Positions 25,993-52,133 of a DNA stretch of 64,000 nt are shown in pieces. How positions within the stretch are numbered: the stretch's first letter is position 1; each line of letters starts with the position of its first letter. A program made the translations under genes and the position numbers. The notes under the pieces are model-generated. The model was not told the DNA's origin and did not search any database. It saw only the letters and a list, made by a program, of their open reading frames with translations. Source of the stretch: Artemia franciscana (taxonomy: Eukaryota; Arthropoda; Branchiopoda; Anostraca; Artemiidae); assembly GCF_032884065.1 (NCBI RefSeq), contig NC_088865.1, forward strand, positions 43,967,152-44,031,151, read 5' to 3'.

Positions 25993-26079
25993 CTTCCCGC
26001 TCAAAGATCTGCTGGAAATAGAAAACCCCTTCCTTTTTCGGTTTCTCAAATTCCACTTTTTTCGAAATGCTTGAATAAC
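25993..26079 (-). CDS. Class B GPCR, exon for end of TM7 and proximal cytoplasmic tail
   Basis: An 87-nt, phase 0-0 exon between acceptor TTTTGCAG|G (AG at 26080-26081) and donor AAG|GTACGT. It encodes VIQAFRKKWNLRN followed by a basic, serine-rich stretch ending SLSGK. Joined after the TM7 exon it completes the class B signature N-x-E-V (here NAEV) with the conserved downstream basic W segment (the helix 8 region, KKW). The serines could be phosphorylation sites for desensitisation (inference). The exon is 3,474 bp downstream of the TM7 exon. Reading through the donor gives an alternative tail that stops at 25903. Confidence 0.8.
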
Positions 26080-29000
26080 CTGCAAAACATATTGAATAAT
26101 TCATTATTTTAATGTTGACATTTTCAGCAACCGCTATTTCAGAACTGAAATAAAATAGAAAACTCAAACATTTGTAATGATTAAGCAGCTAACTAACACT
26201 TTACATTTAAATCTTCATAAATCCAACTGAAAATACAAACATAATGAAGCTTTTGACTTAATTAATTTGACTTTTGACTTTTGACAAATAGTTTTATAGT
26301 TTTAGCCTAGGAATATGAATAAAAGAAAGGAAAAATGAGAAAACCTTTTTTACTCCAATCTTCAACTGTTTAAAATAACGCTAATTTTAACCTTATTATA
26401 TGATAGCCTAAGTCTTAAATAAATCATGCTAATTTTTTTTTTCCAAATGACAGTAAAGAGTGGAAATACAATTTGGAATGGACAGAAAGTGTTCTTTATA
26501 TCAGGGGGCCTCTACACCTCAAATTCTGCACCCTTTATGCTAAAATTCAACTGAAGTTTTCCTAAAAATATTTTAGAGTGCAAAAACTCATACCACAAAA
26601 ACCATACAAATAGTTTGTAATTGTAAGAAGTTTACTTAGAGACTGCATTTCAAACATATGAACTGATAATTTTATTTTTTTAAGGAGCTGCGAGTAAATA
26701 GGTTATTTCATTCTTGATGAACTACGAAACAAATTTAAACTTTCAATCAGATTACTCTAGCGGTGAAATATTAATTCCTGAAGCGTCGAGAAAAAAAGGT
26801 TAAAATTTTTGGCCGAATAATTGGGAATAAGAGGGGGGGGGGAGAATGAAGTGATCCAACTCAAATATAGGATAATTCACGATTTTTTACTTTTTGTTTT
26901 CCTCTTACTCTCAGTAAAATCTTATATTTGTTGGTTATCATATTCAGGGTTTTCCTAAATACAAGGAAGGGCTCCCACTACCTCAATTTTTTGCTCATAC
27001 AGTTCTTTCAGAAAAGAAACCCATTTAGGAAAATATTTCTTAACAATAAAATAAGAGTATTGTGTAATGTAAAATAAGTTGTGTAAATTATAAGAATAAA
27101 ATAAGTGTAAGATTAAAATAAGGTATTAAGGGAGGCTGTCTCCCTCCGTTAATGACCGTTTTTTATGCTTCAGTTAAGTTTTTATCATAACGTCAAATTT
27201 TGCTTTTTATGAATCATCAAAAACAAAAGCCTGACATTAAAAAACTACTGTTTCTGCAATAAGAAGATAGCTTCCCCAGGTCTTGGCACCCCTTTTGAAT
27301 TCTTTGTCTTCCAAATAAAGGCAGGCAAGAGGTAAAATTCCGCATCCTTAATTATCTTGAGAGGCAATTATGGAAGTGTAAATTTAGGCCTAAAAATGAG
27401 CTCTTTGAGAATTTTTATAAACTGCCCTCCCAAGTAACGGATCTATTTAATTTTCTCTCTAATATAGGATGAAAAAATGCAATACTGTCTAATTGCAATT
27501 GCTACCTGTTAAATTTTTTTCAATATCTGGTCATTTGCATATACTGCATATATATTCAAGGGTTTATTTGCCACCGCATGGCAGAAGTTTTTTCAAATCG
27601 GGAGACAATATAGTTATGTTTTTATCGCTCTAAAACAATTGAATATGTCGAAATTCTTGCTCAGAAGCATTTTGGTTTTGTTTGAGCGAAACATTATTTT
27701 TGTAACTCAAATTCTTCGGTATGATTTTTTTCTTACTTAAAAGTGATACTTTAATTTCAATTTTTACTTTGATAAGTCCGCCTTCGATATTTTGGGATTA
27801 GTGGTTTGACACTGTTACTCTCAAAAAGTGAGGCATTCATGACCCTATTTTCGGGGGAAAACTTCAGAATTTGTGCTTCTTTCTATACAGCATCTTTTTT
27901 CACTTTAGGGTTCTCGGATACATTAAATTTTTGTGGTGTAGTTCACCATAATTCATATTTTTGCAGGTGTTTTCTCTTTTTTTTCGGAAAATGTGCGCAT
28001 ATACTAATAAATTTTGATGTCAAATAAAATATAACTGAGTTTTTCAGATTTAGAATCAGCACCAAGAACGGATTCCGGGATATGCAAGTTGTTATCAAAA
28101 ATCCATTCTAACAAAGGTTTGGTCTTCATTGACTAAAATCCCTTTTTACCCACCATTTATTATTAGGGATGATATGCTAGCACCAAACACATACAAGAAC
28201 ATACAAAAAGTATACAATAAACGTCAAAAATAGAAACAACTTATCAAAGTTTTTCAATTTTAATGCTAATTTATTTAAAATTTTCCTAATTAAAACTAGA
28301 AATTCAAAGTATAAAAAATAGCAGCAATCACAGAAAACGAAATATAACAAAAAAAGAAGTAAAGAGTACAATAAAACCACTGAAAGAAAGTAGCAATCCT
28401 TAGTCAGCTAAAACGGCATTTTTTTGTGGAAACTATTTGGACGCATTTTTAAACTGTTGCTTAATATGAGCCGTGATTTGCTCTTTTCTAAGCTGCAGCT
28501 ATTTTCTTAACATGAAAAATCTGTTCTAACCAAAGCAAACTATAAACAGCAAAAATTTTTTTAGTTACAGTTTCACGTTCCAGTTTTAGTTCCAGTTTTT
28601 TTTAGTTAAGCCACTTTTAGTTCCATTTTATCTTTGCCTATTTTCCTGTGTAATTTAAAAGAGTCCCAATTAGAATTTTTCTACATTATCAAAATTAATA
28701 TTAGTAGATGTCTTGGAAATCCATCAATAAAATCGGACATCTACCTTTGGATACTGGAAACCAGACTGAGCCAGTCATATCATCTAGACTTGATTTTTTT
28801 CAGCTTGGATCAGAACAGAGTAGTTTTTTGCTCGTTAATCACTACGTTAATCGTTTTTTCAGTTACCGTGAAATTGTAAATTGTGAAATCATTGTAAAAA
28901 CGCCCAATAACAAATTACCTTTTTGCGACACAATCGGCCTGAAATTTAAATGGAATTAAAATTTTTACACTTAAATTGAGGCATTTAATTTCGAGGCACT

Positions 29001-29553
29001 TAAATTTGAGGTATTCCAACTTGAGATGTACATAATTTAAAATTTTTCTTGGCGAACCATTTAAAGTTTTAGTCTGGCGCTATCAAGTTGGAACTGTCTA
29101 CAGCGTCATCTAAGTTTGAGTTACAAATAAAGATCGTGTATTGTCGCTCACAGCAAAGTACCATTTGATTCGCTTTTAAAAACTTGGTGAAAATATTATA
29201 TTTTAAGTACGACTTGCGATTATTTTCTTAAGCTGTTGTTGGCATTTCTTTGAAAACACAAAGTTTTAAAGATATTACATTGAAAAAGGGCTGCATTCCA
29301 TCCGGTCGTTTTCAGACAACAATTTTGTTTTCTTGTAAAACAAAAACACAATAGATAAAAATTATTTCTTTTACTTTTCTTATAAAGTTGCTTAGTTGAT
29401 GAAACAATATGCTTAAGATTGGATTAAAAAAAAATGTCAAGTTTTATCAGCTGCTTTCACTCTCATTTTTGAAGGTCTTGTGAAGGCCGCGGAAAAAAGC
29501 AGGCAAGGTACGAAAAAGTAGAAAGTGCATTTGTAATATAAATAAAAACTTAC
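26080..29553 (-). other. Receptor intron between TM7 and tail exons
   Basis: A 3.5-kb intron without recognisable transposase or RT. A degraded 'ctccctccgttaatgacc...tttatgct' stretch (about 26500-27200) loosely resembles family A ends. Short frames (27806-28027, 28177-28380, 28634-28959) lack motifs. Confidence 0.5.
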
Positions 29554-29595
29554 CTCAGCATTTAGTAAACAAAACAGTAGAGCCACGAAGACTCC
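29554..29595 (-). CDS. Class B GPCR, 42-nt TM7 exon
   Basis: Fourteen codons, GVFVALLFCLLNAE, lie between a textbook acceptor (TTGCTTATTTTCAG|G) and donor (GAG|GTAAGT), both phase 0. Joined to the preceding exon (…TASFQ) and the following one (V…) they give SFQGVFVALLFCLLNAEV, the hallmark TM7 sequence of secretin-family receptors (consensus SFQGfFVa.lyCf.N.EV). A separate 42-nt exon for this piece of TM7 is a known, conserved feature of class B receptor genes; in vertebrate CRF1 and calcitonin receptors its skipping yields a receptor lacking 14 residues of TM7. The exon is far too short to be found by open-frame searches. Confidence 0.9.
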
Positions 29596-30733
29596 CTGAA
29601 AATAAGCAAACCCTTAATTAATATAAAAAAATAAATCCTTTGGTGGTTGCACACGCCTAGTCAAGATTCCACATCTGAATGGGCCTCCCCTGCTGGATAT
29701 TCAAACGGAGAGGGGTAGGGAAAACGTTTATCCTTCTAGATTTTCCCCTTCCCTATATATTGAAATACATTTTTGAGGAAATTTTACGTAAAAAAACACC
29801 TTTTTTTTATATATTTTAATCGAAAAAATTAAATGAAATGACAAAATTCCCCCTAGGTTTAAAAAAATCCGTTTTATATTACTCTACATTTCCATGAACT
29901 GGCACTCCCAGCTTTGTCTTAGCAGTATTCCCAGAGGTGGTTATAGGAGGAGGACGTAGAGGAGGGTTAGAGGCGCAAAATTTCAAGTAAATAATCTAAC
30001 GGTTATGATCATTTCGAAATTTTTGAAATATATCATTCAAATAGAGGGCACAGTGTGTAAAATTTTGTTGATAAATGAAAATTTTGTGAAAATTCAGACC
30101 GCAACTTTTCGAGAGAAAATAAATTTGGCTCTGATAAAACTTTCGCCAGGGCGCAAGAGAGGTTAGAACCGTCGCTGAGTATTCCATGTTTGATGTTACA
30201 TGATAATAATGCATATACCCAATACACGTTTTAAGTGTAATATTTAATTTATATACTTGGTCCAAGATTCTAGGCCTTGGGCTGTAATACCAAAATTACG
30301 GGAAAAATCACAAGGAGTGGCACCCAGCCTTAGAACTGTTAGAGCCGGACAATTCAAAAAGGTGTTAGAGTACACAGCAAAGCTCTTCAAGAAAGCAAAC
30401 AAACCTGAAAATAAGTGTCAAATTTTCTACGATTCAAATTTAATACGATTTTTATATCTATGGTGTCAAATCCTAACAACTTTACCATCTATGAATGAAA
30501 GAAAAAAAAATGCAGAAAAGGGAGAGAGGATAGAAGAAAATTTTTACATAGAAGATATTAAACCGTCATGGTTGAGAATCAGAAGATATACTAAAAATAC
30601 ATTAGATTAATGGAGCCAATTGGCTTCGATATCATAAATTCTTTTTTCTCAAACATGTTACAACCAACCTATCGAATTATCACATTTCATTTAAATTTGC
30701 TTGAGGGGAGGAGAATAACAACAAAACACTATT

Positions 30734-30741
30734 ATTTATGG
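30734..30741. repeat. 8-bp target site duplication, left copy
   Basis: ATTTATGG immediately precedes the hAT left end. Confidence 0.9.
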
Positions 30742-31063
30742 CATGGGTCGGCGGCCTTTTGCTCTGAAAGGGCCGAAATTCCATGTTGGGATATTACGCG
30801 GGCCGTACTTAGGTATCACTTCATTACACTGTAATTTAGTACTGTAGGTATACTATAGTAATTAGAGCATATCTAAGATATTTATCCGAAAATATTTTAG
30901 GTTTAAAAATAAAACGCTTAATGTATGTTTTTACTACATTTACTGTAGTTAATAAAATCTATTTAGAGTTACATTAGACTTGCAAGCTTTTTTTTACATT
31001 AGCTTGCATTTTTGTATTAGAAACATGTAATATTGCGTCTAAATGTATGTCCGATAATCAATA

Positions 31064-31539
31064 TCAGTGTTTTTTTCGATAATTAAAAATTGACAAAGTT
31101 TGCTCACGAATATATATACTACCAAACCCAGTAATTATTTGCTTGGCAAACCTCTTTAATTCCTTGTAGTTCTCATAATACAAACTTCCATAGAAATCCA
31201 CCAAGTTGGCTTTTACCTTAAAAGCTATTTTAAGTGTAGTATCACTTTGCAAATTTATCACGTTGATTCATTACTGATAATCACTTGGTACAGTACCGAT
31301 ATCCACTCAACTGTGATGAGGTTTTCAAAAATGTCCATCTTACGTGAGATCTTTGTGAAATCAGCGAACCGATTTTCAAACTCAGTTTGAAGTTGTCTTA
31401 ATCCAATTTCATCTGAGTATTTCATTATTTCACCTTTCATTATACCTCTCTCTGAGGATGTTGCCTTGCATATTCTTATCTTACCCCTTTCCCATAGCTC
31501 TTTAGGAGTGACGTGAACTGGTCTCAAAGTTTTCGCCAA
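31064..31539 (-). pseudogene. Decayed hAT transposase (GTF2IRD2/ZBED5-like type)
   Basis: 31539-31258 gives ELWERGKIRICKATSSERG and then a segment with LQTEFENRFADFTK, characteristic of the region before the dimerisation domain. 31261-31064, in a shifted frame, gives INLQSDTTLKIAFK, LVDFYGSLYYENYKELKRFA and FGSIYIREQTLSIFNYRKK, matching the 'LQSD..LK..F......FY..L....Y..L...A......FGS.Y.CEQ.FS' pattern of vertebrate and invertebrate GTF2IRD2/EPM2AIP1/ZBED5-like hAT proteins. The CEQ position reads REQ. The N-terminal two thirds is not recognisable. A frameshift and stops make it non-functional, so the element would need a transposase from elsewhere. Confidence 0.82.
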
Positions 31540-31869
31540 AATTGCATATGTTATTTGCAGTAAAAGGAAGCTTTTCTAGAACTGACTTCCAGTTTGAGAA
31601 GAACCGTTCAGTATTGACCCTGTTAAAGCTTGTTGCTTGACCCAAGCTTGTGGGTTTAAATTTTGCGTAGTAAAAGTATGTGGATTTCGAGCTCGAAAAC
31701 CTACCAGCCAGTCTATTCCTGCTTTTTGGAATAGGCAAGTAATGATGCAGTCAAAGTCATATGCACTGGTATTTGTAGCTACAAATAATTGGGATCGCAG
31801 TCGCAATCAGTCACATTCACAAGTATTTGCAGTTGCATAGGTTTAAACAGTTAAAAGCAGTCACAGTTT

Positions 31870-32560
31870 GAAAAAGTCACAACAGCAGCAGCACTAATTG
31901 CATAAGTAGTAGTTATAGTAGCCCTCAAAACATTCAACGTATACTGCAATATCCCTTGATAGTTTCACCTTAATGCTCTTGGCCATCCCAGATATACTGC
32001 ATATAGACCAGTTTAACATCAATATATAGCTATAAATCCGCCTCAACTGGTCCTTAAGTTTCAGCTTAATACCTTTATCCGTTCATAAGATGCCGTAATA
32101 TGCCCTTATGACGAAATTGGATGGACATAGTGTTGTTTGATTTATTTCAACATCCCCAAGAATATGCTCTGAAGGTTCCAATGTATCTCCCCCTTTTTTC
32201 CTGGGACATTACACATTCACCGTTTTGACATTCTGGATATGTATTGTACCTTTTGATTTAGTTATACTCCTCCTCTAGTTTTCCTGAAAGTTGAAACTTA
32301 ACACCTTAATCTATTCCAAAGACATTGTATCTATGCTACGACAACCTGGATGTACTTAAACACTTTTGAAGAAAGAAAAAAAAAATCACCCTTGATTTTT
32401 TAGATAGGTCTCATCTGGTACATACTGGGATATGGTCTATTGCGCTATCCCACTATATAACAGATGACAGCTATCTATAAAGTCAAGCGTTAATTGTTTC
32501 TTCCGAATGTGTTGCCACAAGATGGCCACATAATACGACCAGATAATTTGGCTTTCATTT
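31870..32560 (-). repeat. Module B array nested inside the hAT element
   Basis: Read on the minus strand, units show 'gttgaactaa'-, 'aagctgaaacttaagg'- and 'gatattgcagtata'-type motifs, as in the module B arrays at 34.8 and 46.2 kb. Each unit is about 160-190 bp and strongly diverged. Confidence 0.6.
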
Positions 32561-32887
32561 TGTACTCCAAGCACTAAATTTTACTGAATTAAAAAAGAAT
32601 AAACAAAAAAAAAAATCTAAAGACAAAATATTTTTTGGTGATTTATCCCAAACTTTGAGGTAGGTTTGTTCACAAACAAAAATTGTAACATACCAAAATA
32701 ATTGGTCTGGACTGGATAGTTGAACATTAAACTAACATCATGCTAGATAACGCTTACGGATTTTTTTTCAAGAATGCTATATGGCAGAATGCTAGATGGC
32801 ACCCCCTTTCAATGAGGGTCTTGCGGGCCGCAGCAAGATGCCTCGTGGGCCACATATGGCCCGCGGGCTGCGCGTTGCCAACCCATG

Positions 32888-32895
32888 ATTTATGG
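32888..32895. repeat. 8-bp target site duplication, right copy
   Basis: ATTTATGG immediately follows the hAT right end, identical to the left copy. Confidence 0.9.
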
Positions 32896-33635
32896 GACTA
32901 CTCTTGAATGTGAAACGATTCACTTGATCAAATTCATTGGTTTCTAGTAGGGGCCAGAGAATGACGAAATCTGGGGAATTTGATAAAAATCTTGTTTCAT
33001 AATCGAATTTTTAAATTTGATCAGATCTCCAGCCCAACTTGCTACTGCTACTACTAATAACAACTCATTGCAGCACCAGGCCGTCTGAGACCAACACAGC
33101 TGCATACGCTCTTCTTCCACCATAATCTATTCAAACCTTCAATCTTTACCACCTCCCTTTTATAAAGTTTCCATTTCCAACGACGAAAAGGCACAATTTT
33201 TGGGTATCTGTCATTTTCATCCGTAAAATATGGCCCAGTCATCTTAATTTTCTTTTACTTTAGCCCAGTAAAGTGGATTCAAACAATGTTCTCCATACAG
33301 GCCATAATTTGATATACGGCCAGCCAAAAGAGTATCTAAGACTATCCTGAAGCGATTCTTCCGCAAAAAATTCAAGTAATCTTTCTCATACTCAATCTCA
33401 GATTACGTCTAACGCAATTTAAATTAAGCTAAATTAATTTTGTCAAAATTTTGTGCCTCAAAGCTTACAGGGCTATAATGAATATAAGATGCCAATATAT
33501 AATATAAATAATGTCAGTCCCAGAGTCTTGATCAGTACCTATGAATTTGATCAAGTGAATGGCTTATTCGTTCAACCACAGAAAGATATTGAGTCCCAAG
33601 TAGCAGATTAGCATTAAAAAAAAATCTTAAAAAAT
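32896..33635. other. Unassigned sequence
   Basis: No gene supported. A phrase 'gatttgatcaagtgaa' occurs near 32920 and 33545 ('cttgatcaaattcat' against 'atgaatttgatcaagtg'), a small inverted pair. Confidence 0.35.
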
Positions 33636-34265
33636 CCTGCAACTCCTTCATGGAAATTCTCTTCCCTCATGATAAATTCCTCGATGCAAAGATAATTCCA
33701 CGGAACCCCCTCCCCCTGACCCACCCCCACCCTAAAGCGAAAATCTCCCTGATAACGTCTGTGCACTTCATAATAACCATTACTATATTGTAAACAATGG
33801 CCAAAGTTTGTAACTTGCAGCCCCTCCCCCGGGGACTGTGGGGGATTAAGTCGTCCCCAAGGACATATTTATTAGGTTTTTTGACTAAGCTAAACAGAAT
33901 GGCTGTCTCAAAATTTTGATCCGGTGACTTTGGGAAAAATGTGTGTGGGAGTGGGCATAGGTGCCCTCCAATTGTTTTGGTCATTTAAAAAGGGTACTAG
34001 AACTATTTCCGCTTTAATGAGCCCTCTTGCGAGATTCTAGGGCTAATGGGTAGATTCAATCACCCCAGGGAAAAACAACAACAAAAAGACAAATAAAACA
34101 CACATCCGTGTTCTGTCTTCTGGCGAAAAATACAAAATTCCCCATTTTTGTAGATAGGAGCTTGGAACTTCTACAATAGGGTTCATTGATATGCTGAATC
34201 TGAGGGTGTGATTTTCGTTAACATTCTATGACTTATAGGGGGTGTTTCTTCTTATTTTCTAAAAT
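33636..34265 (-). mobile_element. Foldback family A, partial copy (core and part of left arm)
   Basis: Contains 'ctcatgataaattcctcgatg', 'gtaacttgcagcccctccccc', 'gtctcaaaattttgatccg', 'tttttgtagataggagctt' and 'ggggtgtttcttcttatttt'. It lacks both termini. Confidence 0.75.
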
Positions 34266-34809
34266 AAGACTGATGGAGGAGCTACTATACCACAGAATTA
34301 TTTCTTTGGCTTCTGATTACACAACCTCGATGGATGGGAACAATGGGGAACGATGGAGGGAAGAATCCACAAGGAATGATGCAGACTCTAAAGTAGAAGG
34401 TGTGTTTCTGCATGGCCCGGTCATCTTTTTTTTCAAAATTCATTGAGAAACATTTTGACTTTTTTTTCGCTTCTCCATCCGGAGTGTTTCATCCCTTGTT
34501 TACTACAATATTATTTTGCGGACAGATTGAACAAAATGTGCAGGCATTGAGGTTTTTACCCAAAATATTTTTTCCAACGTTCTCCATAATTCCAGCTATA
34601 ACAAGCATATGAGCAGATCTGCAGCATAGCATTATACGCTAATCTGGTTATTTCAGTGCTGCTGGCAACACATACATGGTGGCCCAGAGTTTTTAAGAAA
34701 GTCAAAAGCTGGTTGAAAAGGGGACATTGGGCCCACTTCTCACTCCGTCTAAAAAGGGTGTTGTGGAGAGGGGTTTAAAATCCGGTTTGTTTGCCGTCAG
34801 GATGTATGC
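34266..34809. other. Unassigned sequence
   Basis: Two overlapping short plus-strand frames (34228-34612) with no recognised domain. Confidence 0.3.
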
Positions 34810-36830
34810 TAGATAGGAGGTCACATTATGAGTGTATGTGTATTTGATGGAAAAAACAAGGGTATTATGTGCGTACTCCTACTAATGCTTCCTATTACTG
34901 AAGCTAAGAGCATTAAAGTGAAGCTTTCAAGGAATGTTTTGGCAGATGTTGCTCGTAGTCAAAAAGAACTACGAACGTATAGATTGTCAAAAAGGCACAG
35001 CGGCAATATCTCCGGAATGGCTTACATTTTTAAGTTGGTACTTTCAGGGTATGTCGGGGTGGGTTTTGAACTAGCCAAAAGTTACTATGTGTATACTACT
35101 AATACTACTGATACGATTGCAATAGCTAATGAGGCTAAGAGAGCTCAGAAAAGGTAAAACATTAAGGTAAAACATTAAAAACATAAGGTGAAACATTTTG
35201 GGAGCTCAAAATAAAAGTTTAGAGTGTTTAGTTTAGTTTAGGAGGAGTTTAAATTAAAAGAAAAAAAAAACTATGTGCATGCAGGTATTCAAAAAAAGTA
35301 TATAAGCCAAATAATAGGTAGTGCGTGCTACCATAGAAACTTTTAAAGGAGCTCATTTGATTGAAAACTAAAATATCTGGCACCCTTTTCACTAGTAAAA
35401 AGAGATTGGAGGGCAGACAGCCAAGCCCAAGCCTATTAATTCTCAAAAAGCATTCAATCAAAACTTTGGGACAGTCATTCTGCTCAGCATAGTTGAAAGG
35501 TCCAGTAACTATGTCTCTTAGGATGTTTGGGATGTCAACCCCAACAACCTTTAGTGCAAAGACTGTAAGTTTTGCAATTTGCCCATTGCCTATACATAGT
35601 ATTTGTTATGGAGAAAGAGGGCATGTTTGACCTTTGGTGTTCCAAAAGTTCAAGTGCATCCAAGGGAAGCTTTCAGAGAGTTTGAGTGGATTGTTGAACT
35701 AAATAAAAAAATGCTCTGTGAATACACTTTGTCAGAAGGGAGAGCCTCAGGAACAACTGAGGGTACTAGCTTAGAACTTTAAGGGAATGATGAGGTGGAT
35801 GATCAATTGACCAAGGGTATGTTGAGGGGGATGTTAAACTAACGAAAAGGCACTATGTACACGGTACCACTATTGCTGCTATTACAACTGCTATGACTAC
35901 AACTTTTACTGAGGTTATGAATATTAAGATGAAACTTTCAGGGATTTTTTGGGGGTATTAAAGTAAATCAAAATATAATATGTGCATTCAGGTTGCCAAA
36001 AGGATGCATGAGCGATTTCTTAGGAATAACTTAAAGTATTAAACTGAAGCTTTCAGCTTTGGTCGAAGGCTCAGGACAGGTCGTCGTGGCGAACCACTGT
36101 TGCTGCCTTATGCGCCCTCAGGCGTGGGAGGACCTAAGTCTAAGTCTAAGTTTCATGGCGCGTTCAGAAGGACGTTGAATTGACCAAAAGTCAGTCAGTA
36201 CATATTGCTACTACTACTACTGCTGCTACTTCTGCTGCTAACTATATATATTGGTACGACTACTACTACTAAGGCTAAAGATAGGAAGTTGAATATTTCA
36301 GGAAATGTCAAGGGGGGCGTTGAACTAAACAAAAATATACTTTGTGCAAACAGTCTATCCAAAGGACGTACGAGGTTATCACAGGAATGGGCAAGGGTAT
36401 TAAGTTGAAACTTCAAGGACAATTTATGGAGGACACTGAACTAGACAAAATACAAAATGTGCGTACTAGTACTACTAGTAATACCATAGCTTCTATAATT
36501 ACTACTAAGACTGCTGCTACTACTATGGATACTACTACCACAATTGCTGCTACGATGCCTACTACTAGTACTCCTGAAGCTAAGGGTATCACTATATCTC
36601 AGGAAAAGGATAGAATATTAAGTTAAAACTTTTATTATATGTGAAACTTGATTTTGAACCACCCAAAGGGTTATGTATGTTACTGCACTTATAGCTTCTA
36701 CTACTACTACTAATACTACTATTAAGGCTGAGGGTGTTAAAGAGATATTTTCAGAGAACGTTAGGGGTCATGTTAAATTAAACTGAAACACGCTGAGTGT
36801 AAGCAGGCAGTCAAATGGCCGTATCTGCAG
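34810..36830 (+). repeat. Module B (ACT/TAC microsatellite-bearing) repeat array with core module
   Basis: Units of roughly 160-190 bp run 'ttgaactaaccaaaag', 'tactatgtgcata', an optional (CTA/CTG)n tract, 'gctaagggtattaag', 'gtgaaactttcaggga' and 'tgttgagggggatgtt'. A sister form has 'gcaggttgtcaaaagg' and 'gcaatatctcaggaacgg' in place of the microsatellite. At 35330-35620 a family-A-like core module ('gctcatttgattgaaaac', 'ggacagtcattctgctcag') is interposed. Frames at 34828-35157 and 36205-36626 are translations of this repeat. Confidence 0.75.
36200..36270. repeat. (CTA/CTG)n trinucleotide repeat
   Basis: 'gctactactactactgctgctac' and following triplets within a module B unit. It gives poly-Leu, poly-Ser or poly-Thr frames on both strands, none credible. 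Confidence 0.85.
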
Positions 36831-37084
36831 TATATCAAGAAAGGCTTAAAAAATTAGGGGATGAAGCATTGAAGGCACATGTCAGAAGTTGAAGTTGAAG
36901 TACTTCGTATTTAAGCTTCAAAATAAAAACTGGCGTAATTCGAAAGTGTGGCATATTAATCCAATCCCAATAAACCAAACAAAGAAATGAGGCAGAATGT
37001 TTTCGCACTCTCGCCGACAAAACATCCAATATTTCTGGAGTAGAGCAGTTTACTTTAGGTGTAACGTTTGTGTGCAAAAATTAT

Positions 37085-38525: not shown

Positions 38526-38589
38526 GTTTCATGTTTACAGCGTTTTGTCAATAAAGAATGTACCTTATATTCTTTAAAAAGGTATTAGT

Positions 38590-40190: not shown

Positions 40191-40194
40191 AGTT

Positions 40195-40815: not shown

Positions 40816-41970
40816 TTTAATTGGTTTTAATTTTTTAACTTTAATAAATTTAAAATTATTTAGACTTTAAGGAATAAATATCACCTCCGCTAGAGCAGGC
40901 TAAAGGTTACAGTTTCTTTTGTTCAAAACCTGTTTAAAAAAAGAGGTTTAATTTTAGTGTTGTAATTTAAAGAAATCGAATTTTAAGAACTCATTATTAG
41001 GTTCAAACTATTAAACTTTGCTTTCTAAAATTGCAAGATATATTTAGAACGTCGCTATCTCGCTAGATCCAATAGCAAGCTACCTATTCATTATTTTCTT
41101 GAATAAATCCATTTAACTTCACAATATGTATTTATTTTACAATCAGATCCAGGTTCCATCAAATTTGAAGTGGCTTGAAATTTTACACACCAGAAGCAAT
41201 GGACAAATCGGGATTCTAAAGACAGGGTTAATGGCTTTGTTTCTGGTAAACACTTTTTTCTACAGTTTCTTTTATTCAAATCCTGTTTAAAAAAGAGTTG
41301 CATTTTAAAGAAATCGAATTTTAAGAACTCATTATTAGATTCAAACTGCAATAATACCAGTGGCTTAAAAAATACGTTACAGACGTCAACCAACGAAATT
41401 GAAGCACACTTCTTACCACAGAACTATAGGAAAGTAATGTCTCTTTTTTTCTGTGGTTCAAGTGATTTGAAATTAGTTCGAAGGCTGGCCAATCAGAACA
41501 CTGTCTCTAACTCGCTAAGATCTTTGGAATTCAAAATAATTTTACTCGTATTGATTTGTTTGAAAGTCTAAATAAAAATTGGCTAACAAATAAGCTGATA
41601 CGACACGTTTTAGAACTGGCTGAATCTCGGTATTTAAAAGCTTTATTATCGATAAACCTGTACATAAACGGATCTTCATTCGAATTAGCAAGGTCCGATT
41701 TTATATAATAGGTTGTTCACCCCGATTTTTTCATTGATTGAAGTGTTTATAATACATTTGTAACTCTTCACACCTAGTCATTCCTTTTAGTATGCTTATC
41801 GAGCTACACTTCATTAAAATATTTTGGTATGGTATCTTAATGACAAATCTAGAAAGTGACCTTGGTTTGATATATGATTTGATCTCTGCTTGCAGTGCTT
41901 GTAAACAAACTAAGATACAAAATGACTTCAAGGCAGCAGAGAGCAGCGTTTAAGTACCAATCCTACAATT
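40816..41970. other. Unassigned sequence with a ~100-bp direct duplication
   Basis: 40908-41010 and 41259-41350 share 'cagtttcttttgttcaaa', 'cctgtttaaaaaa' and 'aaagaaatcgaattttaaga'. The minus-strand frame at 41091-41393 crosses the second copy and is not supported. Confidence 0.55.
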
Positions 41971-41971
41971 A

Positions 41972-42345
41972 TCAAACAGTAAGGAGCGACCCGGCTCAAT
42001 AGTAACCAAAACTCTAAAAATTGAATTTTGATATCAATATCTACATCAAAAGAATCGCATTTTAATGCTGATTTTAAATATATAAGTTTCATCAGGTTTA
42101 ATTTTACCCATCAAAAGTTACGAGCCTGAGAAAATTTGCCTTATTAAAGAAAACAGAGGAAAACACCCCCTAAAAGTAGTAGGATCCTAACGAAAATGAC
42201 ACCATCAGATTCAGCGTATCAGAGAACCCTACTGTAGAAGTTTCAAGCTCCTATCAACAAAAATGTGGAATTTTGTATTTTTTGCCAGAAGACAAATCAC
42301 GGGTGCGTGTTTATTTGTTTTTTTTTTTTTGTTTTTTTTTCTTTT
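41972..42345 (+). mobile_element. Foldback family A, 5' fragment lacking the terminal hairpin
   Basis: Begins TCAAACAGTAAGGAGCGAC where other copies read TCAAACAG, then a 20-nt hairpin segment, then TAAGGAGCGAC. It continues as usual to 'cccaggggacatag' and then diverges. Confidence 0.8.
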
Positions 42346-42939
42346 TCCCAGGGGACATAGCTCTATTATCAAAAATGTTTCCAAGTCAAATACCACCGCA
42401 TTTTCTTAGACACATACGAAGAAGTCTTATTATCTCTATTTTTAAGTGGGGGAGGGGGTAGTAATCGAAAAATTTCCAAATTTAAAAAAGCTACACACAA
42501 AAAAACAATAAAATTTTATTTCTGGAATAAGTCTTGAGGCCCGAAGCCTTCCCTTGTGCATATAATTGTATCTACAAATAGAATAGAGATTGTACGGGAA
42601 ATAGTAGAATTAACATTACTTATCCTTGCTGACATCCTTGTCACGCTGACTGATTTCAGCGGTGATCAGTAATCGGGTACTTCTGTTTCTCAGAAGAATG
42701 TTCACTCTTTCCCTTCTTTTCGTAATTTTTCGAACCACGTATAATTCATGTAAGAACAATTGAGTTACCCTAAAGTTCGTCTGTTATAAAAACAACCCCT
42801 CCCCCCATCACTTTACCAATACAAAATTCAATACGACATAAGTTAAGGTAACACTCTAAAAAGTCGATTCTCAAACAGAAGCTTTACGTAAAACAGAAGT
42901 TAAACAAGAGACGTCTTTTATCAAACAGCTCGATATTAT
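42346..42939. other. Unassigned sequence
   Basis: No gene or clear repeat identified. Confidence 0.3.
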
Positions 42940-44039
42940 TATTACGTATATTAGGTGGTTCACCCCCTCGTCAATAACCCAATATTTACGCTAAAGTTCA
43001 TATTTCTTATCAATCCTTTAAGAATGAGCCCTGAATCAAAAAAGCCGTTTAATTAGTATAAATAGCTCTTTTGAAAGTACTAAAGAACTTTAGCGTAAAG
43101 AGTGATGTATTGACAAGGGGACGAGCCCCTAATATACGTAATAATTTCGTTTTAATGTTTTATTTCAATTTTAATATACCTTCTTACTTTCAGTTGAAAA
43201 AACTTGTTTTTATATATTTAATTCTTGAACGTTTTTTAAATAATGTTGAAAAATAGGCGCACATGAAAAATTCCTCCACGGAAAGATCCTCCCACGTATC
43301 CCTCTCTCCCCAACCCCCAACAGAAAAAATCACCCCGAAAACGTCTGTATGCTTCCCAATAACCAATACTACATGAAACAATGGGCAAAGTTCACAATTT
43401 GCAGCCCTTCCCCCGGGGCTGTGGGGGATTAAGTTGTCTTCAAAGACAAAGTTATCAAATTTTTTGACTACATTGAACCAAATGGTCATCTCAAAATTTT
43501 GATTCGGTGACAGTGGGTAAAAAAACGAGCGTTGGAGGGGGCCTATTTGTCTTTTAATTTTTTGGCGACTTAAAAATGGCACTAAAACCTTTAATTTACG
43601 TTCTAATGAACCCTCTGGCAACATTTGAGGACCACTGGGTCGGTACGATCACCCCTGGGGGAAAAGAACAAATTAACACGTTTCCGTTTCTTCTGCAAAA
43701 AAAAAAAAAAATACAAATTCCACATTTTTGCAGATAGGATCTTGAAACCTCTACAGTGTGGTTCTCTGATACGGTGAATCTCATGTTGTGGTTTTCATCA
43801 AGGTTTTGTGACTTCCCCCCATTTTTGTTTCCCTCCATTTTTCTAAAAAGGCAAATTTTCTCAGGGTCGTAACTTTTGATGAGTAGGGCTAAACTTGATG
43901 GAACCTATATATTTAAAAGCAGCATAAAAATTTGGTTCTTTTGATGTATCTATTGGTATCAAAATTCGTTTTTTAGAGTTTCTGTTACTATTGAGCTGGG
44001 TCGCTCCTTACTTACAGTTTGTTACCACGAACTGTTTGA
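42940..44039 (-). mobile_element. Foldback family A, diverged copy
   Basis: The hairpin end is at 44039 ('gttaccacgaactgtttga'). The interior has 'tcaaaattttgattcggtg', 'cagcccttcccccgggg' and 'ctttagcgtaaagagtg'; the palindromic end is lost. The 144-codon minus-strand frame (43190-43624) is a reading of the core. Confidence 0.75.
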
Positions 44040-44049
44040 TTCCAATTCA

Positions 44050-44960
44050 GACATAGACAAATTTTTACATTAGTATTAATGCATCAAAAGCCACCAGCTT
44101 CCGAAAGTCAAGTGATCTTAATAAAAATCACACGACCAGATTCAGTATATCAGAAAACCGTGCTGTATAGGTTTGAAGCTCTTATTGACAAAATACAGAA
44201 TTTGTATTTTTTTTTTGCCCGAAGAATTCCACGGACACCTGTTTACTCGTATTTTTTTCTAGGGTGATTGTATTGAACCAACCACCCTAAAAGATCAGGA
44301 AATATTCCATTTGAATGGAAATCAAACGTAAGTGAACAAAAATAATGGAGAGCCACTAAACCCCTCTCATTCCCCCTTTTCTCCAAAGACATATGACCAA
44401 AATTTTCAAACAGCTCTGTAAGTTCAGCCAGAGTCGATCCCATCTCTAAATGGGAACCTGGAGAGATGTAGGGAAGGAAAACAGGAAGGTTGTGCGAAAG
44501 TACAGGAAGGCTGGCCCACAGATCCCGATTGCGCATTCTGGCTGAAGAGCCATGAAACAGAGAGCTACACCATTTGTAGGGACTGTTAAGTCCATTAATG
44601 TGTTCTTACCTTTTTTACTTTTACCATTTTATTCATTATAGTTTAAAGGTCAAATCCCTATGCCTTTGGGGGTGACATGACCGACCATAGTCCCCGTGGA
44701 AAAAGGTGTAAACTGTGCAATTTGCCCATTGATCATGCGTAGTATTTTTTACTGGGAAATATAAGTAGTTTTTTGGGGAAAAATTTTCTGCAGAGCATGA
44801 TTTGAAAAAAAGTTAGAGGTAAAAAAAAGTTTGTTCAGTTGAAAGTAAGGAGCAACATTAAACTTAAAAAGAACATGAATTATTTCGTATATACAGGGAG
44901 TTGCCCTTTTTCCAACCTTCGTTTCTTCCACTTAATTTCAGCTTTTTGTCACAATCCTTT
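44050..44960 (+). mobile_element. Foldback family A, old diverged copy back to back with the previous one
   Basis: Follows the order of family A: 'tcacacgaccagattcag', 'tttgtattttttttttgccc', 'aatggaaatcaaacgtaagt', 'atgcctttgggggtgacatg', then the far end 'agttgaaagtaaggagcaac' and 'ttatttcgtatatacaggga'. About 40% shorter than a full copy, with an interior foreign stretch. Confidence 0.6.
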
Positions 44961-44999
44961 AAGAAAAATTACTCAAATATAAACATAGAATTAAACTAA

Positions 45000-45665
45000 A
45001 CACAAAATAAAAAACACAAAATGTGTTATATTAAACAGTTTAAGTGTCACGAAAAGACGATTGATAAGTGTATTGATTTTTTGTTTGTTTTACTGTCATG
45101 TTTATTAGCTGTTAATATTATGTTTGTTTATTTACTGTTACAGAGGAGTTTTTCTTAGGAATTCAAGAAACAAAAAAAAAGAACATAACAAATTATAAAA
45201 AAAACCGGAAACTAAACATAAACTAAAATGACAAAAGACATTATGTTAAACAATTTCAATGTTACAGATGAGCAAGCGTAGATGTATTTTATTTGTTTGT
45301 TTTACTGTATTTTTTATTTGCTTTTAATATTATATATTTTTTTTTGGTAAAAAGGAGACTTCTAATGCATTCTAGATATGAAAAAAAGTATGACAAATTA
45401 AAAAAAAAATCATATAAACTTATACTAAAAGTAGAAGAATAAACTTAAACCTCTAATTAAATATAAACTAAAAAGCACAAATGATGTTATATTGAACAAT
45501 ATCAATGTTACGAAACTGGGCTGAAAAATGAGCAAGCGTTTTATTTTATTTTACTGCTATATTTATTTAATTTGCTTACTATTATTCTAGAGGAGATTTT
45601 TTACGTAGTTAAGATACAAAAAAACGATGCGATAAATTTTGGAAAATAAACTTTTAACATTCCTG
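45000..45665. repeat. ~220-245-bp tandem repeat, three units
   Basis: 'ttatattaaacaatttcaatgt', 'tttgtttgttttactgt' and 'aaaggagatttttt...ttc(a/t)aga' recur from about 45022, 45240 and 45484. Related units are at 62690-62985. Confidence 0.75.
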
Positions 45666-46189
45666 AAAGTAAATAGGACACGAGAATATCGATGTAAACA
45701 ATTAGGAGAGCTAACTTAATTTGGGAAATGGGGGGGGGGGATACAAATCTACATTTCATAAAAATATCTATGTTTTACAACGATGTATCATGACTTTTGA
45801 ATTAACAGAATCCAAGTTTTATATTCTCATGGTTTCTTCCTGCTAATAAAAAAAAACCTCTTAGATTATACAAAAAAGAGAATAGGATGTAGGCCACCTT
45901 GAAAAAATAAATAAAAACAAAAAAATTGAAAACATAAAATCAACAGCAATTCAAAGCCGTGGGCGGAACTCAATTTTTCATATAATTAAGAACCTAGACA
46001 AGATTTTGCCATTACCAAAAATAAGTAATTTCATAATGTAACACTCAGTTTAAACATATCCTTGTTTTAATTCCTGAAAACTTTTAAAATTTATCGGAAT
46101 GATTTAATTTCAAAGTGAAATAATTCATTTTTATATTCATGGGTGGTGAAGCTTTGTGTAAATATTAGCAATATCTAAGAAACGGCTGA
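45666..46189. other. Unassigned sequence
   Basis: AT-rich, with A-runs and a G10 tract near 45730; no gene. Confidence 0.3.
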
Positions 46190-47505
46190 GGCTACTGAGT
46201 TAAAGCTTTCAATTTATGTTTAAAGATGTTGAAGACAGATTCGACGGCAACCAGCACCCAATCATTGCCCTTTTATGTGCCCCTCTGATCAACATGTTCA
46301 AAGAGCCTCCCGGTCAACCACCCCTCCCATTACTCCTCTTTAGGTGCCCCTTCTGTCCAAACTAGTCAAAACATCTAATAGCTATGCCTTCAGGGATGTC
46401 CCGCCCCCTACAGTCCTAGGACGGGGATTGTCAATTATGCAATATCCTCCTTGTTTTCATGCAGAATTTATATGGAACTATTAAATATGTTGAGGGGTAT
46501 TTCAAACTAAAGCAAAGGCACTATGTACATCCAGTTTATCACGAAGGATATTCTAAGGGCTGATGGTATTAAATTGTAATTTTCAGAATATATTGATTGG
46601 GATGTTTTAAAGTGGTTGGAGGGATTCCCCTTTACATGTCCTTTTTAGAAGATGTTCCTCCAAAAACATTTGATCAAAATTTTGAAATAGCTATCTTGTC
46701 AAAAATCCTCTAAAAGTCAAATACCTATGCCTATGGGGATGTCATAACCCCCACAACTTTTGATATGGCTGTCGAACATAATCGATACACACTATGTGCA
46801 TGCTGGTTGTCAAAAGACTGTATCAGTAATATCTAAGGGATGAGGGTGGAAATTGAAATTTTCAGGTTATAATCAGGTTATAATGATGAGTGAAAGCGGG
46901 GCGACCAGCTCCCTACCCTTTTTAGATACCCCCTCCCCTCAGCACTGAGCGTTCTGAAAAAGTGATTTATTTTAAAATAGTCCAAAGATCTATTAAGTAC
47001 GACTCCGGGGATGGATTGACTCCCACAACCCCTAGGGCAAGGATCGTAAATTATGCAATTTGCCCTTTTTTACATACAGGATTTGTCATTAAGAAAAGGG
47101 AGAATGTTTGATTCTTGGCGTGTTCGATAAAGCTAAGGATATTAACGTGAAACTTTTGCTAATGTTGAGGAGCATACTAAATTAAATCAAAAGATGCTAT
47201 GTGGATTCATTTCATCAAAAAAGCGTATCTGCAATATATCCAGAATGGATGAGCATATTAAATTTGAACTTACAGAACATGGTGAGGGGTAAGTTGAAAG
47301 TGATTGGAGGGATACCAGCTCCTCTTCCGATCTCCTTTTACCTGATCTGCTCCCAAAGATCTCTCACCAAAATTTTGGAAAAGCCATCGTGTTTAAAATA
47401 GTGGAAAAATGAACTAATTATGACTCAGGGGATGAGATAGCCCCCAAGAACCCCAGGTTAACAGTTTTAAGCTATATAAGTAGCTTACTGTTTATATGAA
47501 AGGCT
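46190..47505 (+). repeat. Composite tandem array: module B alternating with family-A-like core
   Basis: Three to four units of about 350-450 bp, each with 'caatatctaagaaacgg', 'gttaaagctttcaattta', 'gattggagggataccagc', 'gatcaaaattttgaaatagc', 'atgcctatggggatgtca' and 'tatgtgcatgctggttgtc'. This shows the two modules as one higher-order unit. Confidence 0.7.
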
Positions 47506-48469
47506 GGTTATCAAACAGTTCGTGGTAACGAACTGTAGTAAGGAGCGACCCGGCTCAATAGTAACCAAAACTCTAAAAATTTGAATTTTGATATCAATAG
47601 CTACATCAAAAAGAATCGCATTTTAATGCTGATTTTAAATATATAAGTTTCATCAAGTTTAGTCGTACCCATCAAAAGTTACGAGCCTGAGAAAATTTGC
47701 CTTATTTAAGAAAATAGGGAGAAACACCCCCTAAAAGTCGTAGGATCTTAACGAAAATGACACCATCAGATTCAGGATATCAGAAAACCCTACTATAGAA
47801 GTTTCAAGCTCCTATCTACAAAAATGGGGAATTTTGTATTTTTTGCCAGAAGACAAATCACGGGTGCGTGTTTATTTGTTTGTTTGTTTGTTTTTTTTTT
47901 TTTTTTTTTTTTTTTCCAGGGGTCATCGTATCGACCAAGTGGTCCTAGAATGTCGCAAGAGGGCTCATTCTAACGGAAATGAAAAGTTCTAGTGCCCTTT
48001 TTAAGTGACCAAAAAATTGGAGGGCATCTAGGCCCCCTCCCACGCTCATTTTTTTTCCAAAGTCAACGGATCAAATTTTTGAGATAGCCATTTTGTTCAA
48101 CATAGTCGAAAACCATAATAACTATGTCTTTGGGGATGACTTACTCCCCCACAATCCCTGGGGGAGGGGCTGCAAGTTACAAACTTTGACCAGTGTTTAC
48201 ATATAGTAATGGTTATTGGGAAGTGTACAGACGTTTTCAGGGGGATTTTATTTTGTTTGGGGGTGGGGCTGAGGTGAGGGGGCTTTGTTGGAGGATCTTT
48301 CCTTGGAGGAATCTGTCATGGGGGAAGAAAAATTCAATGAAAAGGGCGCAGGGTTCTCTAGCATTTCTATAAGAAAACAATGAAAAATAAACATGAAAAC
48401 GTTTTTTCAAATGAAAGGAAGAAGTAGCATTGAAACTTAAAACGAACAGACATAATTACGCATATGAGG

Positions 48470-48550
48470 GGTTCTAAAAATACTTTAGCATAAAGAGCGA
48501 GGTATTTAGGAGGAGATAAATACCTTGCTCTTTATGCTAAAGTATTTTCA
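48470..48550. repeat. Internal hairpin of family A copy
   Basis: 'actttagcataaagagcgag' is mirrored by 'ttgctctttatgctaaagt', giving a ~32-bp stem and 8-nt loop. Counterparts lie at 24292-24375 and 50738-50815. Confidence 0.9.
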
Positions 48551-48957
48551 ACTATTATTCTACGGCCTTTCTGATTCAGGGGTCATTCTTAAAGAATTGG
48601 GACAAAACTTACGATTTAGTGTAAAGAGCGAGGTATTAACGAGGGTACAAACCCCCTCGTATACATAATAAAAATATAAGGTTATGAAAGTTTGTTACGT
48701 AAGTTAATTCTTAAGTTACGTGTATTTTTTACTAATAAAAAACGTTCATTAAAAATTAAAAGTTCTAGTTGCCTTTTTAAGTAACCGAAAAATTGGAGGG
48801 CAAATAGGCCTCCTTTTCCACCCCTTATTTCTCAAAATCATCTGATCAAAACTAAGAGAAAGCAATTTAGCCAAAAAAGAATTAATATACAAGTTTCATT
48901 TTAATAATTTATGTGCGGAGAGCCAAAACCAAACATGCATTAATTCAAAAACGTTCA

Positions 48958-49252
48958 GAAATTAAATAAAAAAAAACTAATTTTTTTAGCTGAAAGTAAG
49001 GAGCGACATTAAAACTTAAAACGAACAGAAATTACTCCGTATATGAAATGGGTTGTCCCCTCCGCAATCCCTCGCTCTTTACGCTGAAGTTTGACTCTTT
49101 GCCACAATTATACTTTTTAAAACAATTAAAAGCTTAAGCGTAAAGAGCGAGGGATTGCGGAGGGGACAACTCATTTCATATACGGAGTAATTTCTGTTCG
49201 TTTTAAGTTTTAATGTCGCTCCTTACTTTCAGCTAAAAAATTAGTTTTTTTT
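48958..49252. repeat. Terminal ~295-bp palindrome of family A copy
   Basis: 'ctaatttttttagctgaaag' is mirrored by 'ctttcagctaaaaaattag'; arms of ~120 bp flank a centre with 'aattatactttttaaaac'. Confidence 0.9.
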
Positions 49253-49255
49253 TAT

Positions 49256-50044
49256 TGAATTAGGAAAAGAGGCCATGATTGATCCTAACTCTTCAAAAGT
49301 CTCTTTTAATATTCATATCGAGGACTTTTCGTTTTAGACCAGTTAGACCAAAGTAGACTGATCAATGTTACTGGGAAGTAGGTGTACATTTTTCAGGTGG
49401 GAGGGGGTAAAATCAAGGGATATTTTACACTGGGAGAATTTGCGTCTTATGTCTTACTTTTTCTTTGCGCGTCTGTCAATTTTACGCGTCTTTTAAGACG
49501 CGTAAAAAGGGTTTTAAGGTAAAACTTCTTGAAAATACTTAGGGGGATATCAAGGGAAATCAAAATGCCTTATAAGCAGAAGGGTTTTCAAAATGGCTCA
49601 ACAATAACACCTAAGTTCCAGCTATGGGTGTTAGCCAGCATTTATCCCAGTGTAAGATTGCACTTATTTGTTTTTTTTGGTCTGTTCTTCTTTGTTCTGG
49701 TTTTGTTTGTATTTGTTAGAAGTTATTCGATTATTTTTTCCTTATATTTGTTTATTACTCCATCAGTGCTGTATTTTAAAATTTCTGATTGGCAATAAAT
49801 TTACTCAATTAATTAAGTTTAATATTTAAGTGCATGTTAAGAGCAGGGCCTTATGCAACTTTTTTTTGGGGGGGTGTTACACAAATAAAACTTTAAAACA
49901 GGCATAAACAATTCGTTTAAATGTATTTTTTGTATTCCTAAGAGTCAGACAAAGAATCGGAGGGGGAAGGGAGACTTTTATTTTAGAGATATATTTAATA
50001 AATTTTATAATTAATTTTTTTATCCCCTTAATTAATAAAAAATT
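49256..50044. other. Spacer between inverted family A copies
   Basis: Contains a T/G-rich frame (49529-49798) with a hydrophobic phenylalanine-rich stretch but no recognised domain, and a piece of the GTATCCAG-type element ('agtcagacaaagaatcggag', about 49850-49980). Confidence 0.4.
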
Positions 50045-51740
50045 ATTAATTTTTTATTTAGCGACATTAAAAATTAAAACGAACAGAAATTACTCCGTAT
50101 ATGAAATGGGTTGTCCCCTCCGCAATTCCTCGCTCTTCACGCTAAAGCTTTTAATTGTTTTAAAAAGTAGAATTTTGGCAAAGAGTAAACTTTAGCGTAA
50201 AAAGCGAGGGATTGCGGAGGGGACAAACCATTTCATATACGGAGTAATTTCTGTTCGTTTTAAGTTTTAATGTCGCTCCTTACTTTCAGCTAAAAAAATT
50301 AGTTTTTTTTATTTAATTTCTGAACGTTTTTGAATTAATGCATGTTTGGTTTTGGCTCTCCGCACATAAATTATCAAAATGAAATTTGTATATTAATTCT
50401 TTTTTTGGCTAAATGGCTTTCTCTTAGTTTTGATCAGACGATATTGAGAAATAAGAGGTGGAGAAGGAGGCCTAGTTGCCCTCCAATTTTTCGGTTACTT
50501 AAAAAGGCAACTAGAACTTTTAATTTTTAACGAACGTTTTTATTAGTAAAAAATACACGTAACTTAAGAATTCACTTACGTAACAAATTTTCATAGTCTT
50601 ATATTTTTATTATGTATACGAGCGGGTTTGTACCCTCGTTAATACCTCGCTCTTTACACTCAATCGTAAGTTTTGTCCCAAGTCTTTAAGACTGACCGCT
50701 GAATCAGAAAGGCCGTAGAATAAATAGTTGAAATTACTAAAAATACTTTAGCATAGAGAGCGAGGTATTTATCTCCTCCTAAATACCTCGCTCTTTATGC
50801 TAAAGTATTTTTAGAACCCCTCATATGCGTAATAATCTCTGTTCGTTTTAAGTTTCAACGCTACTCCTTCCTTTCATTTGAAAAAACGTTTTCATGTTTA
50901 TTTTTCATTGTTTTCTTATAGTAATGCTAGAAAATCCTACGCCCTTTTCATTGAATTTTTCTTCTCCCATGACCGATTCCTCCAAGGAAAGATCCTCCAA
51001 CATAGCCTCCCACCGCCAAACAAAATAAAATCCCCCTGAAAACGTCTCTACACTTCCCAATAACCATTACTATATGTAAACACTGGTCAAAGTTTGTAAC
51101 TTGCAGCCCCTCCCCCAGGGATTGTGGGGGAGTAAGTAATCCCAAAAGGCATAGTTATTATGGTTTTCGACTATGCCGAACAAAATGAATGTCTCAAAAT
51201 TTTGATCCGTTGACTTTGGAAAAAAATGAGCGTGGGAGGGGGCCTAGATGCCCTCCAATTTTTTTGGTCACTTAAAAAGGGCACTAGAACTTTTCATTCC
51301 CGTTAGAATGAGTCCTCTTGCGACATTCTAGGACTACTTGGTCGATACGATGACCCCTGCAAAAAACAAACAAACAAATAAACACGCACCCGTGATTTGT
51401 CTTCTGGCAAAAAATACAATATTCCACATTTTTGTAGATAGGAGCCTGAAACTTCAACAGTAGAGTTCTCTGATACGCTGAATTTGATGGTGTCATTTTC
51501 GTTAAGATTGTACGACTTTTAGGGGGTGTTTCCCCCTATTTCCTTAAATAATGCAAATTTTCTCAGGCTCGTAACTTTTGATGGGTAAGACTAAACTTAA
51601 TGAGACTCATATATTTAAAATCAGAATTAAAATGCGATTCTTTTGATGTAGCTATTGATATCAAAATTCAATTTTTAGAGTTTTGGTTACTATTGAGCCG
51701 GGTCGCTCCTTACTACAGTTCGTTACCACGAACTGTTTGA
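50045..51740 (-). mobile_element. Foldback family A, near full-length copy (minus orientation)
   Basis: Hairpin end at 51740, palindrome at 50061-50325 with its outermost arm slightly truncated, internal hairpin at 50738-50815. By eye it is very similar over its length to the plus-oriented copy at 47511-49255, with which it forms an inverted pair. Confidence 0.87.
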
Positions 51741-51840
51741 TAACTACCTGTAACTAAGTTATAAATTAGGTTCAAGAAAATCCTGTCATTGAATCTAAAT
51801 CATTTTACGAAAAAAGAAAGGAAAAAATACAAGAAGATAC

Positions 51841-52133
51841 CTGAAAAGAAGCAGTAACAGCTAGAACCATTTGATAAGCTATGGTCCATGTGCTTGGTCC
51901 AGTGCTATTGTTCTTTGGTGACAGAAGATCATCAGTATCCGTAGCATCTTCGTGATGAAACGGGACAAGCATATAATGAAGACCAAGAAGGGGTATTAAT
52001 ATGAAAGTTGCTCGAACAGCTTTTTTATAGCCACAAGGACATTTCGGCTCCTTGAGTTGGATACGATGTCTCTTTGATTGGTGCATACTTTGGGGACTTT
52101 TGGTAGAATTATTTGCCGCTGTGCAATGACCAC
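51841..52133 (-). CDS. Class B GPCR, exon for ICL3, TM6, ECL3 and start of TM7
   Basis: The frame reads a hydrophilic, Cys- and Lys-containing loop (KEPKCPCGYKK), then AVRATFILIPLLGLHYMLVP, the TM6 signature of secretin-family receptors (kAvrAtl.L.PLLGl.y.l.pf). An acidic extracellular loop 3 with an N-glycosylation sequon (NNST) follows, then WTIAYQMVLAVTASFQ, the start of TM7. The donor is CAG|GTATCT (51835-51840). The frame is open upstream to about 52215; likely acceptors are GAAG|G (exon from 52133) or CACAG|C (exon from 52118), so the 5' boundary is approximate. It joins in frame to 29554-29595. The PLLGLHY...PF wording resembles arthropod PDF/DH31-type receptors, but the subtype cannot be fixed without TM1-5. 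Expected role: neuropeptide-activated, Gs-coupled signalling at the plasma membrane (family knowledge). Confidence 0.88.

Follow-up and report, generated by a model that had tools for sequence, protein, structure and literature searches.

A gene of at least nine exons for a probable calcitonin/DH31-group receptor in Artemia franciscana

The window (64,000 nucleotides of scaffold C3 from Artemia franciscana, with a GC content of 0.33-0.38) contains three short minus-strand exons, which we number 7 to 9 (Table 1). The preliminary description had assigned them to a class B (secretin-family) GPCR gene, and all three stand at the places that it gave, with GT-AG borders and matching phases. Read in the direction of the gene, and with a slash at each border, exon 7 (52133-51841) runs ...tcttttgaag/GTGGTC...TTTCAG/gtatct, exon 8 (29595-29554) runs ...ttttcag/GGAGTC...GCTGAG/gtaagt, and exon 9 (26079-25993) runs ...tttgcag/GTTATT...GGGAAG/gtacgt. 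Exon 7 begins inside a split codon, of which it carries two bases, and closes at phase 0. Its end at 52133 had been given as approximate, but it is exact, since those two bases complete the codon left unfinished by the exon before.

From the second part of the third intracellular loop, exon 7 runs through TM6 and ECL3 into the start of TM7 (to Q7.49). Exon 8 encodes 14 residues of TM7, GVFVALLFCLLNAE (7.50 to 8.41, with the numbering counted by hand), and exon 9 encodes the basic start of the cytoplasmic tail, VIQAFRKKWNLRNRKRKGFSISSRSLSGK. As had been proposed, the three exons join into one stop-free frame that runs through TM6, ECL3, TM7 (SFQGVFVALLFCLLNAEV), and the basic tail. Because exon 9 terminates at a splice donor, the gene continues past it.

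The joined tail (104 residues) matches 77 distinct PDB sequences at E ≤ 0.001. The best matches are CLR (5.6e-9) and CRF1R (3.4e-8), and no protein from outside class B came first. It also matches Pfam's 7tm_2 with 24.1 bits (the cut-off is 20.6), over positions 200-250 of the 250 in the profile. Taken singly, the exons are harder to find. They are absent from the 23 single-exon 7tm_2 matches in a profile scan of the genome, and in a translated genome search with a 393-residue query, exon 8 alone is a weak match (E = 0.56). Exons 7 and 9 match in place in that search, at 2.6e-62 and 7.3e-9, but these are self-matches by construction.

Table 1. Receptor gene features on scaffold C3, in the direction of transcription, and how each was located
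Feature	Position in window	Position on C3	Strand	Length and phase	Evidence
First half of hormone-receptor domain		44184520-44184627	(-)		1 of 8 genome matches of the hormone-receptor family
Second half of hormone-receptor domain (HRM2 exon)		near 44146084	(-)		Pattern scan of 264 kb
TM1 exon		ends at 44120836	(-)		Second of five candidates in a hydropathy scan restricted to exons of the right phase
7tm_2 match		44112140	(-)		Profile 18-63, a stretch missing from the window
7tm_2 match		44086973	(-)		Profile 74-141, a stretch missing from the window
7tm_2 match		44060113	(-)		Profile 144-200, a stretch missing from the window
Exon 7 of those found	51841..52133	44018992-44019284	(-)	293 nt	AG/GT borders and frame
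Intron between exons 7 and 8	29596..51840		(-)	22,245 bp	Exon coordinates
Exon 8	29554..29595	43996705-43996746	(-)	42 nt, phase 0-0	Borders and frame
Intron between exons 8 and 9	26080..29553		(-)	3,474 bp	Exon coordinates
Exon 9	25993..26079	43993144-43993230	(-)	87 nt, phase 0-0	Borders and frame

The window holds only part of the gene. At least nine coding exons make up the gene, and exons 7-9 come at the end of this series, so the three-exon gene that had been described consists of real exons but is incomplete. Exons for TM1-TM5 had been predicted to lie beyond the 64 kb, and we found six further exons upstream, on the same strand and scaffold, with the farthest 153 kb beyond the window. 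In particular, 3 of the 23 matches from the genome scan with 7tm_2 are on C3 and on the same strand, 29 to 81 kb past the window's high end. The nine exons are 114, 107, 92, 127, 239, 194, 293, 42, and 87 nt long, in order, and they join into one frame of 431 codons. From the coordinates, the gene spans 43993144-44184635, or 191,492 bp (about 191.5 kb), with introns of 38.4, 25.1, 8.6, 24.9, 26.7, 40.8, 22.2, and 3.5 kb. GT-AG borders, exon order, and phase agree at 8 of 8 junctions, with some borders picked with the frame in view. The upstream exons join exons 7-9 in order and in phase, which supports the splicing model of the preliminary description.

In the 431-residue product, a hormone-binding extracellular domain is followed by seven membrane segments and the first stretch of a basic tail. 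The product matches two Pfam families, in support of the proposed class B identity: HRM, the hormone-receptor domain, with 67.6 bits (positions 3-64 of 66), and a complete 7tm_2 with 195.5 bits (4-250 of 250). The C-terminal half of the hormone-receptor domain alone scores 20.9 bits, which is under the cut-off of 26.2. (Another Pfam family, Dicty_CAR, scored 20.2 bits, below its cut-off of 21, and was rejected.) An extracellular hormone-receptor domain sets class B1 apart from most adhesion-type 7tm_2 proteins. The extracellular domain has five of the six conserved cysteines, and D before CW, CW, CP, and GxW are all present; the first cysteine would sit farther upstream, on an exon that we did not find. 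PMC7200681 lists the six cysteines and these motifs for the extracellular domain.

The same genome contains two relatives of this gene, on scaffolds C4 and C1. A translated genome search with a 393-residue version of the protein (8 exons) gave 30 matches at E ≤ 10, among which were all 8 query exons on C3 and 8 counterparts on C4, in order. With its HRM match added, the C4 copy has nine exons over 157 kb. Their nine lengths are identical to those on C3, their borders are GT-AG, and they read in a single open frame. Two of the C4 matches are weak alone (E = 0.135 and 6.87) and were accepted because of their place, borders, and frame; the weaker of these is the counterpart of exon 9, and it is of equal length. 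A second gene with the same nine exon lengths is an independent test of the exon model, which indicates that the model is real.

The C3 and C4 proteins are identical at 325 of 431 residues (75%). We estimate a dN of 0.164 and a dS of 3.23, which is near saturation and hence rough. Exon 8 encodes the same 14 residues in both copies, despite 9 nucleotide differences: 8 of its 14 codons have changed, all of them synonymously. Exon 7 has 19 synonymous and 45 non-synonymous changed codons. Since the proteins are still 75% identical despite near-saturated synonymous change, the gene is under selection, with the caveat that comparing a pair cannot assign the constraint to one of the two branches.

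The C1 copy is more diverged. It has seven exons in one frame, and exons 8 and 9 were not found there. The counterpart of exon 7 is 67% identical on C4 (over query positions 35-114) and 51% identical on C1 (over 44-114). A query with exon 7 gave 10 genome matches at E ≤ 10: the C3, C4, and C1 copies, the neighbouring C3 exon, and six matches with E above 1. These comparisons show that the C4 copy is an older duplicate that shares the exon plan of the C3 gene and that the C1 copy is a more distant third relative. We also noticed a second copy of the HRM2 exon at C999:23395-23505 (-), with 97% identity to the query and a score equal to that of the C3 exon.

Both ends of the C3 gene lie outside the exons that we could place. 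An exon with the start codon, signal peptide, and first cysteine was not found, nor were the final tail exon(s) with the stop codon found downstream of exon 9. For the tail, we collected the stop-to-stop frames that reach at least 18 aa on the minus strand in the 10 kb downstream of the C4 copy (189 frames) and compared them with the 86 kb downstream of exon 9. There were 582 matches at E ≤ 1, and the best 25 of the 582 look like repeats. After filtering (at most 4 matches per frame, on the gene's strand, with no stop), 5 matches were left, with a best E of 1.3, and we claim none of these. Similarly, the interval 5914-25992 offered 17 candidates for a terminal exon; retroelement-like frames led the list, and none is claimed. 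The 3' end may still lie in this interval, as is suggested by a sulfotransferase-like frame at 5272-5913 (-), on the same strand as the receptor gene. This 213-aa open frame matches galactose-3-O-sulfotransferase (PF06990, positions 126-305 of 402) with 87.5 bits and is the best-scoring host-like frame of the ten proteins scanned, which makes it doubtful that the receptor is the strongest host gene in the window, as had been stated.

To place the receptor within class B, we compared it to proteins with solved structures. Among the matches listed, down to E = 1e-45, the nearest to the C3 protein are CTR (229.1 bits) and CLR (227.5 bits), and CRF2R is next with 160.1 bits, so CTR and CLR are ahead of it by 69 and 67 bits. 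For the C4 copy, CTR (237.0 bits) and CLR (222.5 bits) are followed by PTH1R (164.3 bits), and for the C1 copy, CTR (203.6 bits) and CLR (198.0 bits) are followed by CRF2R (150.4 bits). Judged by similarity, this places all three copies with calcitonin-type receptors among the receptors with solved structures. Like the human calcitonin receptor (PDB 9blb, 5uz7) and CLR (6e3y), the Artemia protein has a hormone-receptor domain with CW, CP, and GxW motifs, seven membrane segments, a TM6 that starts with KAVRAT, and FQG...N.EV in TM7. In the alignments, its second and third extracellular loops are longer than theirs. Our preferred reading is that a functional class B1 GPCR gene of the calcitonin/DH31 receptor group has its 3' part in the window, and we would put the probability of this at roughly 0.8. 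From membership in this family, we infer a role as a receptor for a neuropeptide or hormone. Literature searches on Artemia with diuretic hormone 31, and on Artemia with calcitonin, neuropeptide, and GPCR, returned no report of this gene; we claim nothing wider.

As outlined in PMC12638048, PMC7200681, and PMC4237046, the calcitonin group splits into deuterostome CTR, protostome DH31 receptors, and protostome "Cluster A" calcitonin receptors, and receptors for PDF (pigment-dispersing factor) form the other main clade. An arthropod receptor that resembles CTR and CLR would be expected among the DH31 or Cluster A receptors described there. The preliminary description had proposed a PDF/DH31-like affinity, and the nearest solved structures favour the calcitonin/DH31 half of this. 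It is also conceivable, but in our view unlikely, that the gene encodes a PDF receptor. In the tree of PMC12638048, which is rooted with CRH-type receptors, PDF-type and calcitonin-type receptors are the two clades. There is no PDF receptor among the PDB matches listed, and a PDF receptor could also come nearest to CTR and CLR. More broadly, our placement uses solved structures, so it would not separate a DH31 receptor, a Cluster A calcitonin receptor, and a PDF receptor. On the other hand, the C3 gene and its two relatives are all led by CTR and CLR, by 47 to 73 bits. The HRM match is strong here, while two sea cucumber PDF receptors are described in PMC12638048 as having no predicted HRM, which is a weak argument from one species.

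Alternatively, the C3 gene might be a decayed copy (a pseudogene) of the C4 gene. This would account for the failure to find either end of the gene and for the distance between the two copies of exon 7, with its 45 non-synonymous codons. But we consider it very improbable, given 431 open codons across 8 junctions, an exon 8 whose changes are synonymous only, and a dN of 0.164 against a dS of 3.23 (though the pair comparison leaves the constrained branch unassigned). We give almost no credence to the idea that the three pieces in the window are unrelated open stretches that were joined by chance. It is true that AG and GT are common, that the 14-residue exon is weak alone, and that stop-free frames of at least 132 aa arose 0 to 3 times in 20 first-order random windows. 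Yet the joined tail has PDB and Pfam matches, six further exons stand upstream in the right order and phase, and the C4 copy has equal exon lengths; a chance join of exons 7-9 is refuted by the reconstruction of the whole gene.

If the gene does encode a receptor of the calcitonin/DH31 group, then one part of a DH31/calcitonin-like peptide would be held by the extracellular hormone-receptor domain, and the other part would enter the core. On binding, TM6, ECL3, and TM7 would move (TM6 and TM7 outward), a Gs-type G protein would be engaged, and cAMP would rise. The ligand, the helix movement, and the coupling to Gs are all predicted by analogy with the receptor family. In the same genome, on C9, there is a DH31-like peptide exon that reads as 34 protein letters (not shown), in keeping with this placement. 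A second copy of the peptide exon, at C90:1762787-1762888 (-), has a score equal to that of the copy on C9. Perhaps this copy and the second HRM2 exon (on C999) are from unmerged haplotypes.

According to PMC9331257, class B receptors have a HETx switch (H2.50, E3.50, T6.42, Y7.57) and a network (R2.46, R6.37, N7.61, E8.41). Counting by hand, the Artemia protein has H2.50, E3.50, and T6.42 of the switch, with F at 7.57 as in CLR, and R2.46, N7.61, and E8.41 of the network, with K at 6.37. Because exon 8 carries 7.50 to 8.41, an in-frame skip would take out half of this switch. As summarized in PMC3659299, the TM7 exon is highly conserved in the secretin family, and skipping has been reported for the CRF1, PTH1, and rabbit calcitonin receptors. 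Exon 8 is like the 14-residue TM7 exon of vertebrate class B genes in that account, with 42 nt and phase 0-0 on both C3 and C4. The split between TM6 and TM7 is not universal in this genome, since a single open frame holds both in another class B gene, L057. The TM6-region exons of L057 (C5:29298650-29299050) and of a further class B gene, L055 (C19:9852550-9853050), look CRF/DH44-like by eye.

The third intracellular loop is unusually long. From KLR or KLK at the end of TM5 to KKAVRAT, it has 60 residues in all three copies, as compared to about 10 in human CLR (between aligned blocks, 59 residues in the C3 protein vs. 9 in CLR). In this it differs from the calcitonin-type receptors with solved structures, a point against our placement. 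The loop has diverged more than the rest of the protein: C3 and C4 are identical at 22 of 58 residues in the loop (38%) and at 303 of 373 elsewhere. On C1, the TM5 exon ends, and the intron within the loop sits, 27 nt earlier, and the loop again has 60 residues. The long loop is not shared by all class B genes of this genome, as L055 has a short one. The hip and hop variants of PAC1, as covered in PMC3659299, likewise add residues to the third loop of a class B receptor. They are described there as optional cassettes of 81-84 nt, whereas here the added length is on the two exons that flank the loop intron, in all three paralogues. We speculate that the 60-residue loop might be a signalling module of this receptor group that is fixed in length but changes quickly. 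This is a long shot, and the identical lengths in three genes may be a coincidence. If true, the loop module would set the G protein or other partner of each duplicate, while the face that binds the hormone stays conserved.

Biologically, the gene is mostly ordinary. Exons of 42 to 293 bases, tens of kilobases apart, were read correctly from raw sequence and can be tied to a whole gene, and a crustacean genome gains three related calcitonin-type receptors, with introns and a third intracellular loop that are both long. Two of the duplicates, with the outside kept and the inside changed, could reveal, as a natural experiment, what decides the partners of a class B receptor.

Reverse transcriptase frames in the window, at 11193-12029 (-) and 57711-58361 (+), match RVT_1 with 80 and 33.2 bits, and the frames that adjoin them, at 12828-13487 (-) and 56906-57295 (+), have no Pfam match but look endonuclease-like by eye. 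Elsewhere in the genome, there are 75 matches to COX1, of which 14 cover at least 410 of the 436 profile positions. In 12 of these 14, TGA is the only stop, and several are inside chromosome-sized contigs. Such matches are either recent nuclear copies of mitochondrial DNA, in large number, or pieces of the mitochondrial genome that were misassembled. The best COX1 match is flanked by nad2-like and cox2-like frames (named by eye). Finally, the scan with 7tm_2 also turned up four intronless-looking frames of 691 to 846 aa (L002, L004, L005, and L008), with an N-terminal cysteine pattern that by eye resembles somatomedin B. L004 and L005 have equal scores and are 0.45 Mb apart on C2.
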